This document shows, in pieces, positions 1,281-43,139 of a DNA stretch of 64,000 nt (positions are counted from its first letter, which is position 1; each line of letters starts with the position of its first letter). Both the position numbers and the translations under genes were made by a program. The notes under the pieces were generated by a model, which saw only the letters and a program-made list of their open reading frames with translations, searched no databases and had not been told where the DNA came from. Source of the DNA: Desulfuromonadales bacterium (GTDB taxonomy: Bacteria > Desulfobacterota > Desulfuromonadia > Desulfuromonadales > BM103); assembly GCA_014860225.1 (NCBI GenBank), contig JACZKE010000034.1, positions 1 through 64,000 of the forward strand, written 5' to 3'.

Positions 1281-1534
1281 GTGCTCGCCGTGGCGTTCAA
1301 ATACCTGCACCAGGGACAGTACTTCACCCAACGGTCATGCACCTTGCCACATCCTTGACAGGTCTCGCGCAGAACCACCCGACACTGCGGGCATACCAGC
1401 CAACCCGACTCGACTTTCTCTGAGCAATCAGGGCATTCACCCATCAAAGGGTTCTCTGTAGGGGTCGGCTTGTCTATCTCCATACAGATAAAGTAGAAGA
1501 TGATCGAGAGACTGATAATAAATATCATGAACAT
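1277..1534 (-). CDS. Small membrane protein with double zinc ribbon
   Basis: An 85-residue protein with one N-terminal membrane helix (residues 1-18). Four CxxC knuckles follow (CPDC, CPQC, CQGC, CPWC), the pattern of a DZR-type double zinc ribbon. The start ATG comes six bases after the stop of the ABC ATPase gene, with a GAGG ribosome-binding site inside the ATPase end. Its stop overlaps the next gene's start. It is therefore part of the same transcript as the ABC transporter. No enzymatic function is implied; such domains usually act in protein-protein or nucleic-acid contacts. Confidence 0.65.
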   Translation of the reverse strand: MFMIFIISLSIIFYFICMEIDKPTPTENPLMGECPDCSEKVESGWLVCPQCRVVLRETCQGCGKVHDRWVKYCPWCRYLNATAST

Positions 1535-1540
1535 AGTGCC

Positions 1541-2251
1541 TCACATCGCTTGTGGAAATGTCCCGATGGAACCATCAACCGTATCCTTCTCAATCAAGCC
1601 ATCACGCAGATAAACAGTACGATCGACCCACTCGAGGTTCTCTCGGTTATGGGTCACCATGACAATGGTCTGCCCTCCCTGATGCAGCTCAGCAAGCAGG
1701 TTCATCACCTGCAGACTGGTTGCTGAATCGAGGCTACCGGTCGGTTCATCAGCCAAAAGTAATGGCGGATTATTGACTAGAGATCTGGCAATTGCCACCC
1801 GCTCCTGCTCACCTCCGGATAGCTGTTGCGGTAAATGCAGCATGCGGTCCGGCAGGCCAACCTTCTCCAGCATTGAGCTGGCACGCTGGCGTTTTTCAGT
1901 GGAAGAAAGTTTGGTTACGACCAGCGGCAGCATGACATTTTCCAGAGCATTCAGATAAGGAATCAAGTTATGTGACTGGAAGATAAAACCGAGGTATTCA
2001 CGCCGGAAATCTGCCTGCTTTTCGTGTGAGAGTCCATAGACGTCAATACCGTCGATATTGACCGTGCCGGAGGATGGGCTGGTCAAGCCGCCCAGCGCAC
2101 TCAACAGTGTGCTTTTGCCGCTCCCTGAAGGCCCCATAATGCCCAAAAAAGTACCCTCATCAACATCGATGGAGATCTCCTGGAGGGCGGTCACACAATC
2201 AGCGCCATTGATGTAACGCTTGGTCACCTGTTTCAGATTAATCAGATTCAT
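1541..2251 (-). CDS. ABC transporter ATP-binding protein, MacB/LolD family
   Basis: A 236-residue ATPase subunit. Visible motifs are Walker A GPSGSGKS (about 40-47), the signature LSGGE (144-148), Walker B LLLADEP (164-170) and the H-loop in VMVTH. The sequence type is that of LolD/MacB/FtsE ATPases, which drive permeases acting on periplasmic or membrane substrates rather than classical import. The gene lies 14 bases after the partner permease gene and just before the two zinc-ribbon proteins. A DUF2318 gene next door recalls the Cj1660-Cj1663 part of the Campylobacter P19 iron locus. The substrate is not known. Confidence 0.9.
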   Translation of the reverse strand: MNLINLKQVTKRYINGADCVTALQEISIDVDEGTFLGIMGPSGSGKSTLLSALGGLTSPSSGTVNIDGIDVYGLSHEKQADFRREYLGFIFQSHNLIPYLNALENVMLPLVVTKLSSTEKRQRASSMLEKVGLPDRMLHLPQQLSGGEQERVAIARSLVNNPPLLLADEPTGSLDSATSLQVMNLLAELHQGGQTIVMVTHNRENLEWVDRTVYLRDGLIEKDTVDGSIGTFPQAM

Positions 2252-38059: not shown

Positions 38060-40330
38060 ATGGGCCAGATACTGACCATCAGGGAAAACTGCAGAAAATG
38101 CTACGCCTGTGTCCGCAATTGTCCGGTCAAGGCGATTCGCGTCCACCGCAATCATGCTGAAGTCATCGACGACCGCTGCATCGGCTGCGGCAAATGCATC
38201 AAAAGCTGCTCGCAGAAGGCCAAGGTTATCGCCGATCATGTCAGCGAGTGCCGTCACCTGCTTGCAGCCGACAAACCACCTATTGCCATCCTCGGCTGCT
38301 CACACCCGGCCTTCTTCCACGACCTTCGCTCGGGCCAACTGGTCACAGGTCTGCGCCGGCTCGGTTTTGCCGAAGTCCATGAGGGAGCTGCCGGTGTCGA
38401 CCTGCTTCGCGACAGTTACCGTACGTATCTGGAAAAGAACCGGTCCTACCCGCTGATTACAACTCACTGCCCGACAATCGTCGACCTGATTCAAAGACAC
38501 TACCCGCAGCTGCTCAAGAATCTGATCGGTCTGGTCTCACCGATGGTTGCCATCGGTCGCTTCATCAAGAGTCGAACCACGACCGACACCCCGGTTGTCT
38601 ACATCAGCTCCTGCATTGCCGGAAAATTCGAGATCACTGCCGAGCAGACCGAAGGCGCTATTGACTGTGTCATCTCCTACCAGGAACTCAGCGAGTTGTT
38701 CAAAGGCCGCAATCTCGACTTGAAGCGTCTTGGCGAAACAGCCTTTGATGGCATGCAGCCGCAACGTGGCCGGCTCTTTGCGATTTCCGGAGGTCCATTC
38801 AAGTCTTTTGATATCGCCAGTGAAATCACCAATCAGGATTACGTGGAAACCGAAGGTGAAGAAAATGCCATGGAGGTGATAAAAGACCTTGCGGCAGGCC
38901 GAATTTCACCGAAAGTGGTTGATATCCGCTTCTGCAACGGCGGTTGCATCGGAGGACCAGGCAAGAACAATCGTCTGACCACCTTCTCCAAACGCAACCT
39001 GATTATCGAGCAGCACCTGAACCAGAACCTTTACTACCGGACCAAATCGAATTACCTGGCCGATACGCAATTACCAGCCTTTAGCAAAACTTTTATCAAC
39101 AAACATGTACGTCCCAAAACGCCAAGCAGTGAACGTCTACGGCAAATTCTCCAGGCAACCGACAAGTATGAGACAAAAGACGAACTGAACTGCGGCGCCT
39201 GTGGTTACACAACCTGTCGTGAACATGCCGTTGCAGTATACCGGGAATTGGCTGATGGCGACATGTGTCTTCCATACTCGCTAAAGCGTCTCAAAGAAGA
39301 CAACATCAAGCTCACCCAGAAATACGAGCTTGCCCAACACGCTTTGAAGCAGGAATTTGGCGCGACGGTGATCATAGGCAATGACCAGCGTACGAGAGAA
39401 GTTATCAAGCTGATCCATCAGGTTGGACCAACACCAACGACAGTACTGATTCGAGGTGAAAGCGGCACTGGCAAAGAGCTGACTGCACGCGCAATCCATG
39501 CCCAGAGTCAACGGTCCGATAAGCCGCTGGTCTCGGTCAATTGCACAACCTTGACAGACAGCCTTCTTGAAAGTGAACTGTTTGGGCATAAGAGAGGTGC
39601 GTTTACTGGAGCAATCAGTGAGAAACGCGGCCTCTTCGAAGCAGCCGATGGCGGCACAATTTTTCTCGATGAAGTCGGTGACATCACACCCAAGCTTCAA
39701 GCTGAACTCCTGCGCGTTCTCGACAGTGGCGAAATTCGTCCGGTCGGCGACACAGCTTCAGCCAAAGTAGACGTACGCCTGATTGCAGCGACCAATCGTA
39801 ACCTCGAACAAGGTGTAGAAGAAGGCTGGTTTCGCGAGGACCTTTTTTACCGATTAAACGTATTCACCATTACCATGCCGCCATTGCGCAGTCGGCTCGA
39901 ATCCCTTGATGAACTGCTGCAGACTTTTATTGCCAAAGCCAGCACTCGTGTCAACAAGACCCTATTGGGAATTGAAGATCGAGCCGTTCAGGCCATGCGC
40001 CAGTACCATTGGCCCGGCAATGTCCGTGAATTGCAGAACATAATCGAGCGGGCCGCGGTACTGACTCACGACAAAATTGTCAGGTTGGAGAATCTTCCCG
40101 TGATTTTTGCAGATCTGGTCTTGCAGTCGCCGGATCGAACGAATCAAGACAACTTGCGCAGTCAACGTCAGCAACATGTTAACCAGATCGAAAAGAATTT
40201 GCTGACTCGCTACCTGCGTGAAGCTGAAGGCAACGTCTCTGCAGCAGCACGTTTGTCCGGAATCCCCAGACGCAGCTTTTATCGAATGCTTAATCGCAAC
40301 GGCCTTAACGGGACAAACTTCAAGCAATAA
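38060..40330 (+). CDS. Sigma-54 activator with [FeFe]-hydrogenase-like sensory domain
   Basis: A 756-residue protein. Residues 1-60 are a 2x[4Fe-4S] ferredoxin (Cys 11, 14, 17, 21 and 40, 43, 46, 50). Residues 60-330 are a [FeFe]-hydrogenase large-domain relative. Here TSCCP is changed to THCPT, but the four cluster-ligating Cys seem kept (137, 185, 292, 296). An Fe-S domain follows (CGACGYTTC, from 378). The AAA+ domain has GESGTGKE and the sigma-54 contact GAFTGA (about 512-517). A Fis-type helix-turn-helix ends it. It probably senses redox state or H2 and activates sigma-54 promoters. A perfect such promoter lies 220 bp downstream. Confidence 0.88.
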
Positions 40331-40550
40331 AACAACATGAAATTATTTTAAGACAATTCTCGTCATAAATCGTCAGCGCCATGTGACAATAATGGCACAG
40401 TCATTTTTCCAGGTTTTTCAGTACCTTCCCCGCTGTCGTCAATATTGCGTGCCAATTTCGGCACATACCCCTCAAAACACATCAGGTCACCAGCACCAGA
40501 AAAGCCTTCAGCAACAAGGGGTTTACAGATTTTCCGTCAGCCATGAATCT
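40331..40550 (+). promoter_or_regulatory. Likely activator-binding region upstream of sigma-54 promoter
   Basis: This spacer holds two short inverted repeats, GCCAT-N9-ATGGC (40378-40396) and GTGCC-N6-GGCAC (40449-40464). They sit 85-190 bp before the -24/-12 promoter, the normal distance for enhancer sites of sigma-54 activators. Binding by the adjacent regulator is an inference. No gene is seen here. Confidence 0.35.
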
Positions 40551-40566
40551 TGGCACATTAGTTGCT
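40551..40566 (+). promoter_or_regulatory. Sigma-54 (-24/-12) promoter
   Basis: TGGCAC-ATTAG-TTGCT matches the sigma-54 consensus exactly, including the invariant GG and GC spacing. The predicted transcript starts near 40577. It follows the gene of a sigma-54 activator. Confidence 0.65.
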
Positions 40567-40576
40567 AACATACTTG

Positions 40577-40670
40577 ACTAACTGTCTAGGGACACCAGTT
40601 TCCGATCCAAGGATTCCCGCTCCCTTGTTTGCGCCGCCAGGGACCTCTCTCCCCCGGGCGGCGTTTTTTT
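40577..40670 (+). ncRNA. Candidate sigma-54-dependent small RNA
   Basis: About 94 nt between the predicted start of the sigma-54 promoter and the end of the T-run. No open frame with a ribosome-binding site fits inside. Two C-rich stretches (CCCGCTCCC and the terminator-loop CCTCTCTCCCCC) could pair with Shine-Dalgarno sequences. The alternative is an attenuated leader of ptsP, which starts 124 bp later. No family was recognised. Confidence 0.4.
40632..40670 (+). terminator. Strong intrinsic terminator upstream of ptsP
   Basis: CGCCGCC and GGCGGCG arms, with an inner GGG/CCC pairing, are followed by seven T. Confidence 0.85.
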
Positions 40671-40793
40671 ATCCAGCACCGGACGCCACCCCCTGATTTT
40701 TTACTCCTGCACTTTTCCTGAATTTTTTGTTCGCCAAAAAAACTTCCGTCAGCTATCATACCTGCGTCAACAACAACTAACTCCGACAATCCC

Positions 40794-43139
40794 ATGCCAC
40801 GCAATCCAAACTCAAAAATAGGCATTACCACTCTTGAGGATATCAGTGCACTGATTCTCCAGTCACATGATCTCGATGAGACCTTGCGCAACATTGTAAA
40901 TCTTGTTGCACGCCGCATGCATACGGATGTCTGTTCGATCTATCTCCTCGATGCTGACAATGAAACCTTACGTTTGCAGGCCTCCAAAGGACTTTCCCGC
41001 AAAGCAGTGGGCAAGGTAACTCTGCGCATCGGCGAAGGGCTCACAGGCATGGCCGCCCAGAAGCGTCATGCAATAGCCATTGAGGAACCCCATGAGCACC
41101 CCAGCTATCGTTACTTTAAAGAGACAGGCGAGGAGCGTTTTCACTCGTTCCTCGGCATCCCTCTCTTTGATCGCAATAACCCTCTTGGCGTCATAGTACT
41201 GCAGACCAAAGACCCCCGACAGTTCAGCAAAGAAGAAATCAGTGCCCTGTCGACGATAGCCTTTCAGATCACCTCAATTGTCGTCAACGCGCGACTGCTG
41301 GATTCCATTCGCCTGCATCAGGAAGAAAGTCAACGTGTCAACAACGCCCTTGCCCAGGCACAACAGACCTTAACAACACAGGGAAGAGTAACCGAACCCC
41401 TTCCGCAGAATGTTTTGACAGGTTGCGTCGCCTACCCCGGCGTCGCCATTGGACCAGCAGCAATCCTCGAAGAGCGGCTCGGCTTCACTGATATTCTTCA
41501 CGAAGAAGAAGTCGACATAAAAGCGGAACTAAGCAACCTTGAAAGCGCTCTGGAAAAGACCTGTATCCAGACGATCTTCCTTGAGAAGCGCGTAGCAGAG
41601 CGCCTCAGCGAGAGCGATGCAGCAATTTTTCATACGCACCTGATGATTCTTGAAGACCGCAGTTTTATCAACAAACTTCAAAATGAGATATCAAACGGCC
41701 ACAGTGCTGCTTATGCGCTGGGCAAAATCGTTTCTGACTACATTGAAGTTTTCCATAAAATGGAAGACCCCTACCTCCGCGAGCGTGCGTCGGACATGGA
41801 AGATATCGGGCGCCGCATCCTCGCCAACCTGATCGGCAATTCTTCAGAACAGAATCTGCATTTGAAGCATCCAGGCATCCTGGTTGCCAGACAGATTCTG
41901 CCCTCGGATATGGCCGCACTGGATAATGAGCAGATCCTCGGTATCATCACCGAGGCCGGAGAGATGAATGCTCATGCTGTCATCATGGCAAAATCTATGG
42001 GTATCCCTGCGCTTGTTGCTGTGCAGGGAGCCCTTAAGCACATTGCCCCGGATGACAACCTGATCATCGATGCCAACACCGGACGTATCTATATCAATCC
42101 ATTGGAGACAGTCAAGGAAGAGTACCGACGACTGCTGCAGGATCAGACCCGTGAACTCAACCGCCTCGATGAGTACCGCGACCATCCGGCCATGACTAGC
42201 GATGGCGTACGCATCACCTTGCGTGCCAACATCGGTCTGATCAGCGACATCAGCGTTGCCAAGCGCTTTGGTGCCGAGGGTGTCGGTCTCTACCGGACGG
42301 AATTCCCCTACATGGCTCGCGGTGACTTTCCCGGCCGCAATGACCAGTACGAGCTCTACAGTCGGGTGGTTAAAGAATTCGATGGCCAGCCGGTAACCAT
42401 TCGCACACTGGATATCGGTGGCGACAAGGCGTTGCCTTATTTCAGCCCTCCGAAAGAGGACAACCCCTTCATGGGTTGGCGTTCCGTGAGAGTCTCTCTC
42501 GATAATCGTGACATTTTCCGCACCCAGATCGAAGCCATCCTCATGGCAGGCATGCACGGCCCGGTCAAATTACTCTTTCCGATGATCTCCAGCATGGATG
42601 AGACCCGCGATTGCCTGGAAGTGATCAAAGAGGCTCGACAAAATCTTTTGAATGAAGGTATCGATTGTCCCGCCAAGGTTCCCGTCGGCGTCATGATCGA
42701 AGTCCCCGCTGCGGTACGCCTGGTTCCACAGCTGGCAAACCTGGTTGATTTCTTTGCTCTTGGCACCAACGACCTGATTCAATACCTGTTGGCCGCCGAC
42801 CGCAACAACCCTCTGGTCAGCAAGTATTATGACCCACTGCATCCCGCTGTCCTGCAGGTTCTCAACGAGGTGACCAGGACGGCTCATTCGATGGGCAAGG
42901 GAGTCAGTCTGTGCGGCGAAATGGCAACAGATCCTCTGACTCTGCTGTTACTGATCGGCATGGGTTTGCGTGAATTCTCAATGCCTGCTCCCTTTATTCC
43001 TCGGACCAAGGCATTTCTCAAGGGCGTTTCCATGGAAATTGCTTGCCGGCGTTATGCTCAGATTGACAGTATGGACAGCAGCATACAAATCCGCAAACAC
43101 CTTGCAGAGGTTCTTGAAGAGGTTGAGTTGGGACATTAA
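40794..43139 (+). CDS. ptsP: PtsP: phosphoenolpyruvate-protein phosphotransferase with GAF domain (enzyme I-Ntr)
   Basis: A 781-residue protein. An N-terminal GAF domain (about 17-165) is followed by a coiled linker, the enzyme I N-domain, the phospho-His swivel (EMNAHAVIMAKS, His about 394) and the PEP-binding barrel. The barrel has the LGTNDLIQYLLAADRNN signature and the catalytic Cys in LCGEMA (about 705). It passes phosphate from PEP to NPr and EIIA-Ntr, linking carbon and nitrogen state to regulation. The GAF domain may sense glutamine or 2-oxoglutarate. There is no clear ribosome-binding site before the ATG. Confidence 0.93.
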   Translation: MPRNPNSKIGITTLEDISALILQSHDLDETLRNIVNLVARRMHTDVCSIYLLDADNETLRLQASKGLSRKAVGKVTLRIGEGLTGMAAQKRHAIAIEEPHEHPSYRYFKETGEERFHSFLGIPLFDRNNPLGVIVLQTKDPRQFSKEEISALSTIAFQITSIVVNARLLDSIRLHQEESQRVNNALAQAQQTLTTQGRVTEPLPQNVLTGCVAYPGVAIGPAAILEERLGFTDILHEEEVDIKAELSNLESALEKTCIQTIFLEKRVAERLSESDAAIFHTHLMILEDRSFINKLQNEISNGHSAAYALGKIVSDYIEVFHKMEDPYLRERASDMEDIGRRILANLIGNSSEQNLHLKHPGILVARQILPSDMAALDNEQILGIITEAGEMNAHAVIMAKSMGIPALVAVQGALKHIAPDDNLIIDANTGRIYINPLETVKEEYRRLLQDQTRELNRLDEYRDHPAMTSDGVRITLRANIGLISDISVAKRFGAEGVGLYRTEFPYMARGDFPGRNDQYELYSRVVKEFDGQPVTIRTLDIGGDKALPYFSPPKEDNPFMGWRSVRVSLDNRDIFRTQIEAILMAGMHGPVKLLFPMISSMDETRDCLEVIKEARQNLLNEGIDCPAKVPVGVMIEVPAAVRLVPQLANLVDFFALGTNDLIQYLLAADRNNPLVSKYYDPLHPAVLQVLNEVTRTAHSMGKGVSLCGEMATDPLTLLLLIGMGLREFSMPAPFIPRTKAFLKGVSMEIACRRYAQIDSMDSSIQIRKHLAEVLEEVELGH

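Follow-up and report, generated by a model that had tools for sequence, protein, structure and literature searches.

A candidate sigma-54-dependent small RNA beside a hydrogenase-like activator gene, with predicted targets among TCA-cycle mRNAs in Desulfuromonadales

What occupies the gap between a sigma-54 activator gene and ptsP in a Desulfuromonadales genome, and what might it control? The window, that is, the whole stretch of 64,000 nucleotides analyzed here, carries in this order a DUF520 gene, which we take to be yajQ-like, the gene of a 756-amino-acid sigma-54 activator (38060–40330, forward strand, assigned by its Pfam domains), a gap of 463 bp, and ptsP, encoding a GAF domain and PTS enzyme I (40794–43139, forward strand), which we regard as a neighbor outside the proposed unit. 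A preliminary description of this DNA had placed a sigma-54-dependent small RNA in the gap. We examined its sequence, its occurrence in related genomes and the mRNAs with which it could pair.

The intergenic region and its predicted RNA

The -24/-12 promoter that had been claimed, TGGCAC-N5-TTGCT, is present as a perfect match (TGGCAC-ATTAG-TTGCT) at positions 40551–40566 of the forward strand. With the start placed from this promoter and the end from the terminator, the RNA would extend over about 94 nt of the same strand, from 40577 to 40670. This agrees with the span proposed before, since the terminator's run of seven T begins at 40664 and its last T is 40670. That no gene lies between was also borne out: from the activator stop (40330) to ptsP (40794), the sole open reading frame of at least 80 amino acids is a mechanical one on the reverse strand (40586–40918). 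A protein-coding reading of the RNA itself was not supported, as ATG and GTG are absent from the 94 nt by reading, and two of the three forward frames contain stops, frame 0 alone being stop-free. Across the 3.94-Mb genome of this bacterium, we counted 13 exact copies of the promoter pattern, compared with three of a reversed control, so the promoter by itself is weak evidence. An Rfam scan of the window gave no match at the gathering level, and a simple terminator scan of 39500–41500, whose rule allows only loops of 3–8 nt, missed the hairpin of the RNA.

The 3' hairpin with its T-run (40631–40670, forward strand) was delineated from covariation, a near-invariant loop and the predicted fold. 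In the alignment, 96.7% of the cells of this hairpin are paired and both sides change in 6 of its 11 pairs; the covariation score was reached by none of 500 shuffles, and sliding the partners against each other destroys it. CUCUCUCC is retained in the loop region of nearly every aligned sequence, and on the basis of fold and alignment we propose ACCTCTCTCC (40643–40652, forward strand) as an anti-Shine-Dalgarno seed. Part of this seed is paired in the window's own minimum-energy fold, where CCUCUC alone is unpaired in the loop region; many relatives leave about 10 nt of the loop region free, the free length depending on the register. A 5' hairpin, in which AGGGA and TCCCT would pair around a small inner hairpin, is predicted at 40588–40625 of the forward strand. 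Most sequences are predicted to form its stem, in which GGG(G)A pairs with (U)CCC(C), but the gain over mononucleotide shuffles is small (mean z -1.4, n=52). Consensus folding of the MAFFT alignment recovered the 3' hairpin alone, and the 5' stem was checked per sequence. Both C-rich stretches of the RNA had been suggested to pair with Shine-Dalgarno sequences. The suggestion suits the second stretch, which sits in and beside the terminator loop, better than the first (CCCGCTCCC), the 3' half of which (TCCC) is taken up by the 5' GGGA in the predicted fold.

Distribution of the RNA and its link to the activator

We compared the region at the DNA level with 58 genomes, that of the window included, and 39 gave a match. 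The best matches covered the stretch from promoter to terminator and weaker ones its terminator, and in a few cases the start of ptsP was matched separately. Among 57 loci examined, including that of the window, 54 carry a CTCTC terminator, and a promoter precedes it in 53 of the 54. The automatic call had given 52, and a second look corrected L065, which was mis-called there; some of these promoters depart from the consensus, and that of L052 is weak. The preliminary description had suggested comparing the same intergenic region in relatives, and the outcome is that promoter and terminator recur at the same place (53/54 loci) with a near-invariant loop. The one exception, L075 (genome G031), has an RNA-like hairpin before ptsP with neither a sigma-54 promoter nor an activator, and is perhaps a decaying copy.

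To cover the order more broadly, we used a covariance model, R1, built from an alignment of 42 sequences. R1 matched 90 of 136 genomes of the order at E-values up to 0.001, of which the 42 training members match by construction; seven genomes also have a weak second match. Two genomes first counted as positive, G104 and G131, were reclassified, as their matches turned out on reading to be other hairpins. In a sample of the phylum searched with strict filters, R1 matched 8 of 395 genomes, seven of them inside the order, and the eighth match (G358) reads as an ordinary terminator. E-values near 1e-4 are unreliable without the neighborhood. A lenient search of 38 genomes scored as lacking the RNA, together with G104 and G131, gave matches in 29; neither the activator nor ptsP adjoins any of the 30 loci examined, and those hairpins that were read by eye are different elements rather than the small RNA.

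A separate hairpin-pattern scan of named genomes yielded 51 stretches, 49 of them titled Desulfuromonadales, genera of that kind or Deltaproteobacteria. Among these 49, the promoter score was at least 12 in 47, the activator was visible within the DNA examined in 40, and upstream inverted repeats numbered at least one in 46 and at least two in 39. A contig titled Chloroflexi (L160) carries the activator, the promoter and the repeats, and is probably misbinned; another stretch from the scan, L168, shows no sign of the system beyond the hairpin. Among cultured strains, Malonomonas rubra DSM 5091 (L154) has the activator, the promoter and the repeats, and Geothermobacter hydrogeniphilus HR-1 (L171) has the RNA and the promoter, no activator having been found in the 8-kb locus.

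The RNA and the activator gene occur together. With G104 and G131 removed as RNA carriers, 81 of the 136 genomes have both, seven the RNA only, six the activator only and 42 neither, so that 81 of the 87 genomes with the activator also have the RNA (Fisher p = 2.8e-21, kinship ignored). The RNA lies 188–680 nt downstream of the activator gene on the same strand in 80 of the 81, and on a different contig in the remaining genome. The region upstream of the promoter in the window contains two inverted repeats resembling TGTGCC-N6-GGCACA, TGTGACAATAATGGCACA (40382–40399) and CGTGCCAATTTCGGCACA (40448–40465), both on the forward strand, which are candidate binding sites of the activator. Searching for this consensus with up to two mismatches and leaving out L065, we found at least one repeat in 48 of 48 activator-linked loci and at least two in 42 of the 48, compared with 0.008 per region in mononucleotide shuffles; among five activator-less loci, two have one repeat and none has two. 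No perfect copy exists in the window's genome. Nine sites there have one mismatch, the window's two being the only ones that lie together, and 157 have up to two mismatches, versus 84 for the reversed control. Fifteen sites of this genome were looked at, including the window's two, and none of the 13 others has a sigma-54 promoter (at most two mismatches) within about 1.5 kb. The view that sensor, activator and small RNA form one unit thus gained ground on two sides, from adjacency in 80 of 81 genomes and from repeats that are present in every linked locus and lost or reduced in 5/5 activator-less ones. Comparison among genomes gives good support both to the small RNA gene and to its link with the activator.

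Some loci depart from this arrangement. The RNA occurs without the activator in seven genomes, and its promoter is intact in four of the five inspected (G059 and G130 were left out), so another activator may drive the RNA there. In these four loci (L071–L074), the RNA and the sigma-54 promoter are kept, the activator gene was not found, and the upstream repeats number one or none. Three loci of the f4 family (L069, L070 and L076) have a diverged activator, 38–43% identical, directly before ptsP, with a gap of about 70–110 nt and no RNA; their genomes have HydF, a hydrogenase maturase.

Sensor domain, candidate targets and competing readings

Pfam assigns the N-terminal half of the activator two 4Fe-4S ferredoxin motifs, an Fe-hydrogenase large-subunit C-terminal-like domain and an FeS domain (PF04060), and the output part an AAA+ sigma-54 interaction domain and a Fis-type helix-turn-helix. 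The best solved relatives of the sensor half are [FeFe] hydrogenases. All 16 predicted cluster-ligand cysteines are present in every one of the 60 loci outside f4 and of the three within it, several loci sharing a genome; the former figure also holds for the four predicted cubane cysteines of the H-domain together with the PF04060 cluster cysteines. A lysine neighbors the H-domain cluster cysteines in 58 of the 60 loci and an arginine in the other two. The residue before the first H-domain cluster ligand is a histidine in all 60; in hydrogenases, the residue beside this ligand is a proton-path cysteine.

To identify mRNAs with which the loop could pair, we searched seven genomes for GGAGAGAG-N2..12-ATG. 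Site counts exceeded those of the reversed control in all seven, from 15 versus 8 in the window's genome to 32 versus 4 in G040. Starts were read for all hits in G000 (15), G012 (25) and G040 (32), for 35 of 38 in G001, 17 of 22 in G067, 4 of 15 in G069 and 4 of 38 in G033, and an open frame was found at 87 of the hits so read. Close orthologues recurred for citrate synthase (five of the seven genomes), malate dehydrogenase (four), fumarase (three), monomeric isocitrate dehydrogenase (two, both relatives), a class III cytochrome c (three) and an orotate phosphoribosyltransferase-like protein (two, named by eye), and the remaining matches between hits of different genomes were weak (24–32% identity). 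Overall, four of the six recurring orthologous genes encode enzymes of one pathway, the TCA cycle. As background, GGAGAGA was found in 5 of 247 genes, and GGAGAGAG is also plausible simply as a strong ribosome-binding site. A class III cytochrome c gene with a GGAGAGAG ribosome-binding site was seen in three genomes (L224 of G000, L200 and L278) and is a possible further target.

We propose that 40577–40670 gives rise to a trans-acting small RNA from the sigma-54 promoter, which the adjacent activator would switch on by binding the upstream inverted repeats. The activator would read the state of its four predicted iron-sulfur sites, with redox or iron-sulfur status, not H2, as the probable signal. 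The loop region of the terminator hairpin, ACCUCUCUCC, would pair with GGAGAGAG at the ribosome-binding sites of target mRNAs and block translation of citrate synthase, malate dehydrogenase, fumarase and, in relatives, isocitrate dehydrogenase, so that the unit would act as a brake on acetate oxidation via the TCA cycle. The proposal is built on comparison, namely on the conserved RNA gene, its promoter, the adjacency, the upstream repeats, the covarying hairpin and the complementarity, from which we infer transcription, activator binding, the signal and repression. Repression of TCA enzymes by the small RNA is, on these sequences, a good prediction, and we consider the proposal as a whole probable. 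A further idea is offered tentatively, as a possibility that we hold to be rather less than even: the hydrogenase-like domain, lacking a maturation system, may have become a one-protein iron-sulfur sensor that sets how fast acetate is burned, such that once acceptors are exhausted and the cell is over-reduced, the RNA simultaneously shuts down citrate synthase, isocitrate dehydrogenase, fumarase and malate dehydrogenase. Should the proposal hold, a small RNA governed by a hydrogenase-like iron-sulfur domain would curb the TCA cycle throughout an order that comprises metal reducers and related bacteria, giving a directly testable answer to how acetate oxidation slows when acceptors are scarce.

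Three other readings were weighed against this proposal. The element could be a conserved attenuated leader of ptsP, in which the sigma-54 transcript stops at the hairpin unless a signal permits it to run into the gene, an alternative that the preliminary description had raised. Indeed, the gene that follows in the window, as in most loci examined, is ptsP, and where the activator is lost (L071–L075, the last of these without the promoter) the RNA stays between dppF-like genes, named by eye, and ptsP. However, ptsP is not next in seven RNA loci (L015, L057–L059, L064, L079 and L080) in which promoter, loop and terminator persist; the following gene, named by eye, is yebC-like in L057–L059 and DedA-like in L079 and L080. 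In L080, and probably in L079, two genes intervene and ptsP follows on the same strand about 3.5 kb later, which makes read-through possible there, but in G006 (L015) some 40 kb and a change of strand separate the RNA from the ptsP-start region. Conservation, moreover, covers the loop sequence and not the stem alone. A single sigma-70-like site before ptsP (40731–40759) scored no better than shuffles. The leader reading is thus disfavored, and we consider it improbable. A hydrogen sensor, in which the hydrogenase-like domain would carry a full H-cluster and switch the RNA on or off with H2, draws on the conserved H-domain cysteines with their neighboring lysine or arginine, and on the group C and D hydrogenases, which are described as proposed H2 sensors in the parts of the literature consulted (PMC8163306, PMC13104023). 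Against it stand the invariant histidine beside the first cluster ligand and the distribution of the maturase HydF. We found HydF in 18 of the 136 genomes, comprising two with RNA and activator, six with the activator only and ten others. It was not found in the window's genome nor in 79 of the 81 carriers, many of these genomes being drafts; the two positive carriers are G065 and G093, the latter with a stop-bearing fragment. HydF is present in all six genomes that have a diverged activator and no RNA. As HydF was not found in most carriers, their activators are probably unable to mature an H-cluster by the known route. Iron-sulfur or redox state is therefore the more likely input on sequence grounds, and a true H2 sensor is highly improbable.

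The third reading keeps the activator-driven sigma-54 small RNA and supposes that it acts mainly on mRNAs other than those of TCA enzymes, or on a protein (CsrA, for instance). Pairing of the loop is possible with many purine-rich ribosome-binding sites, the class III cytochrome c (three genomes) and the orotate phosphoribosyltransferase-like gene (two) recur among the hits, and GGA motifs, of interest with regard to CsrA, are visible in the RNA by eye. This is countered by the four enzymes of a single pathway among six recurring close orthologues, and, for CsrA, by the GGGA of the 3' stem, which is not kept in all members, whereas the loop nearly is. We regard this reading as unlikely.

A search of open-licence PubMed Central articles, among the matches listed where result sets were large, found no description of this RNA. 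The Neisseria RNAs NmsRA and NmsRB (NgncR_162/163), likened here by published description, have UC-rich single-stranded anti-Shine-Dalgarno stretches that act directly against several central-metabolism mRNAs, and in the portions of the reports used, these stretches repress six of eight tested mRNAs, including gltA, sdhC, sucC and fumC (PMC5362039, PMC9973317). In contrast to the RNA proposed here, they are encoded by twin genes, form three stem-loops and are under stringent-response control in meningococcus, and those portions of the reports mention neither a sigma-54 promoter nor an adjacent activator (PMC5362039, PMC9973317). RoxS/RsaE of Bacillus and Staphylococcus, as portrayed in the excerpts of PMC4409812, likewise has C-rich regions able to pair with ribosome-binding sites and targets in the TCA cycle and central metabolism, and its redox-linked induction offers a further parallel; it differs in being a Firmicute RNA under two-component control (ResDE, SrrAB) and induced by NO. 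Judged by analogy, NmsR is the nearest functional parallel. Because the loop is complementary to the ribosome-binding sites of TCA-enzyme genes, we infer a sigma-54 RNA that would block their translation, as NmsR does.

GlrR, LuxO, CbrB and NtrC are sigma-54-class activators, and several of them adjoin their small RNA. The pairs GlmY/GlmZ-GlrR, Qrr-LuxO, CrcZ-CbrB and NrsZ-NtrC are listed as small RNAs under NtrC-type regulators in the sections of PMC7602753 drawn on here; those regulators belong to two-component systems, whereas in the protein of the window sensor and activator form a single chain, the sensor being iron-sulfur and hydrogenase-like, and the targets differ. The sensor half resembles the group C/D [FeFe] proteins TmHydS and TamHydS, which, in the descriptions available to us, have N-terminal 4Fe-4S motifs, an H-domain and a C-terminal 4Fe-4S cluster, with a PAS domain or none as output in place of the AAA+ domain found in the window's activator (PMC8163306, PMC13104023). 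It further differs from them in the histidine that precedes the first H-domain ligand and in the genomes around it, in most of which HydF was not found.

Predicted target sites across the order

To ask whether the sites accompany the RNA, we read the start regions of citrate synthase in 73 genomes and of malate dehydrogenase in 52, with counts corrected for G104 and G131; 5 of the 69 start regions from RNA carriers came from the site search itself. For citrate synthase, at least 7 nt of the site are present in 35 of 36 start regions of RNA carriers, compared with 24 of 37 in genomes scored as RNA-less (Fisher p = 0.0006); for malate dehydrogenase, the corresponding figures are 30 of 33 and 11 of 19 (p = 0.011), kinship being ignored in both tests. 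The citrate synthase site is missing in 11 f4 genomes, in G037 and G121 and, among carriers, in G038; the malate dehydrogenase site is missing despite the RNA in G029, G036 and G133. Since the site-less genomes mostly belong to one distant family (f4), the association between RNA and site is confounded by descent. The RNA-less genomes that keep a site, mostly members of family f8 and in part incomplete drafts, weaken the argument for co-evolution.

Individual genomes add detail. In G038, both the loop and the citrate synthase site differ from the usual form, and they match each other over 8 nt, versus 6 nt with the window's loop. G037, which has no RNA, carries GGAGAAA sites, whereas the citrate synthase site of its relative G051 reads GGAGAGA.

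Two further kinds of C-rich hairpin were seen in passing. In several f8 loci (L444, at about 1455–1520, and L447, L454, L457, L461, L462 and L472, near 1500), two such hairpins follow a lactate-utilization-like operon (LUD/Fe-S protein, by reading), one with a CTCTCTC-type loop and the other a terminator with a CTCCTCC loop. They may represent another RNA with targets of this kind, and our guess is that the hairpins with the CTCTCTC loop may substitute for the small RNA in this family. In G104, a terminator behind a porin-like gene, named by eye (L443, about 1500–1560, reverse strand), has a near-identical loop, AACTCTCTCCCC.
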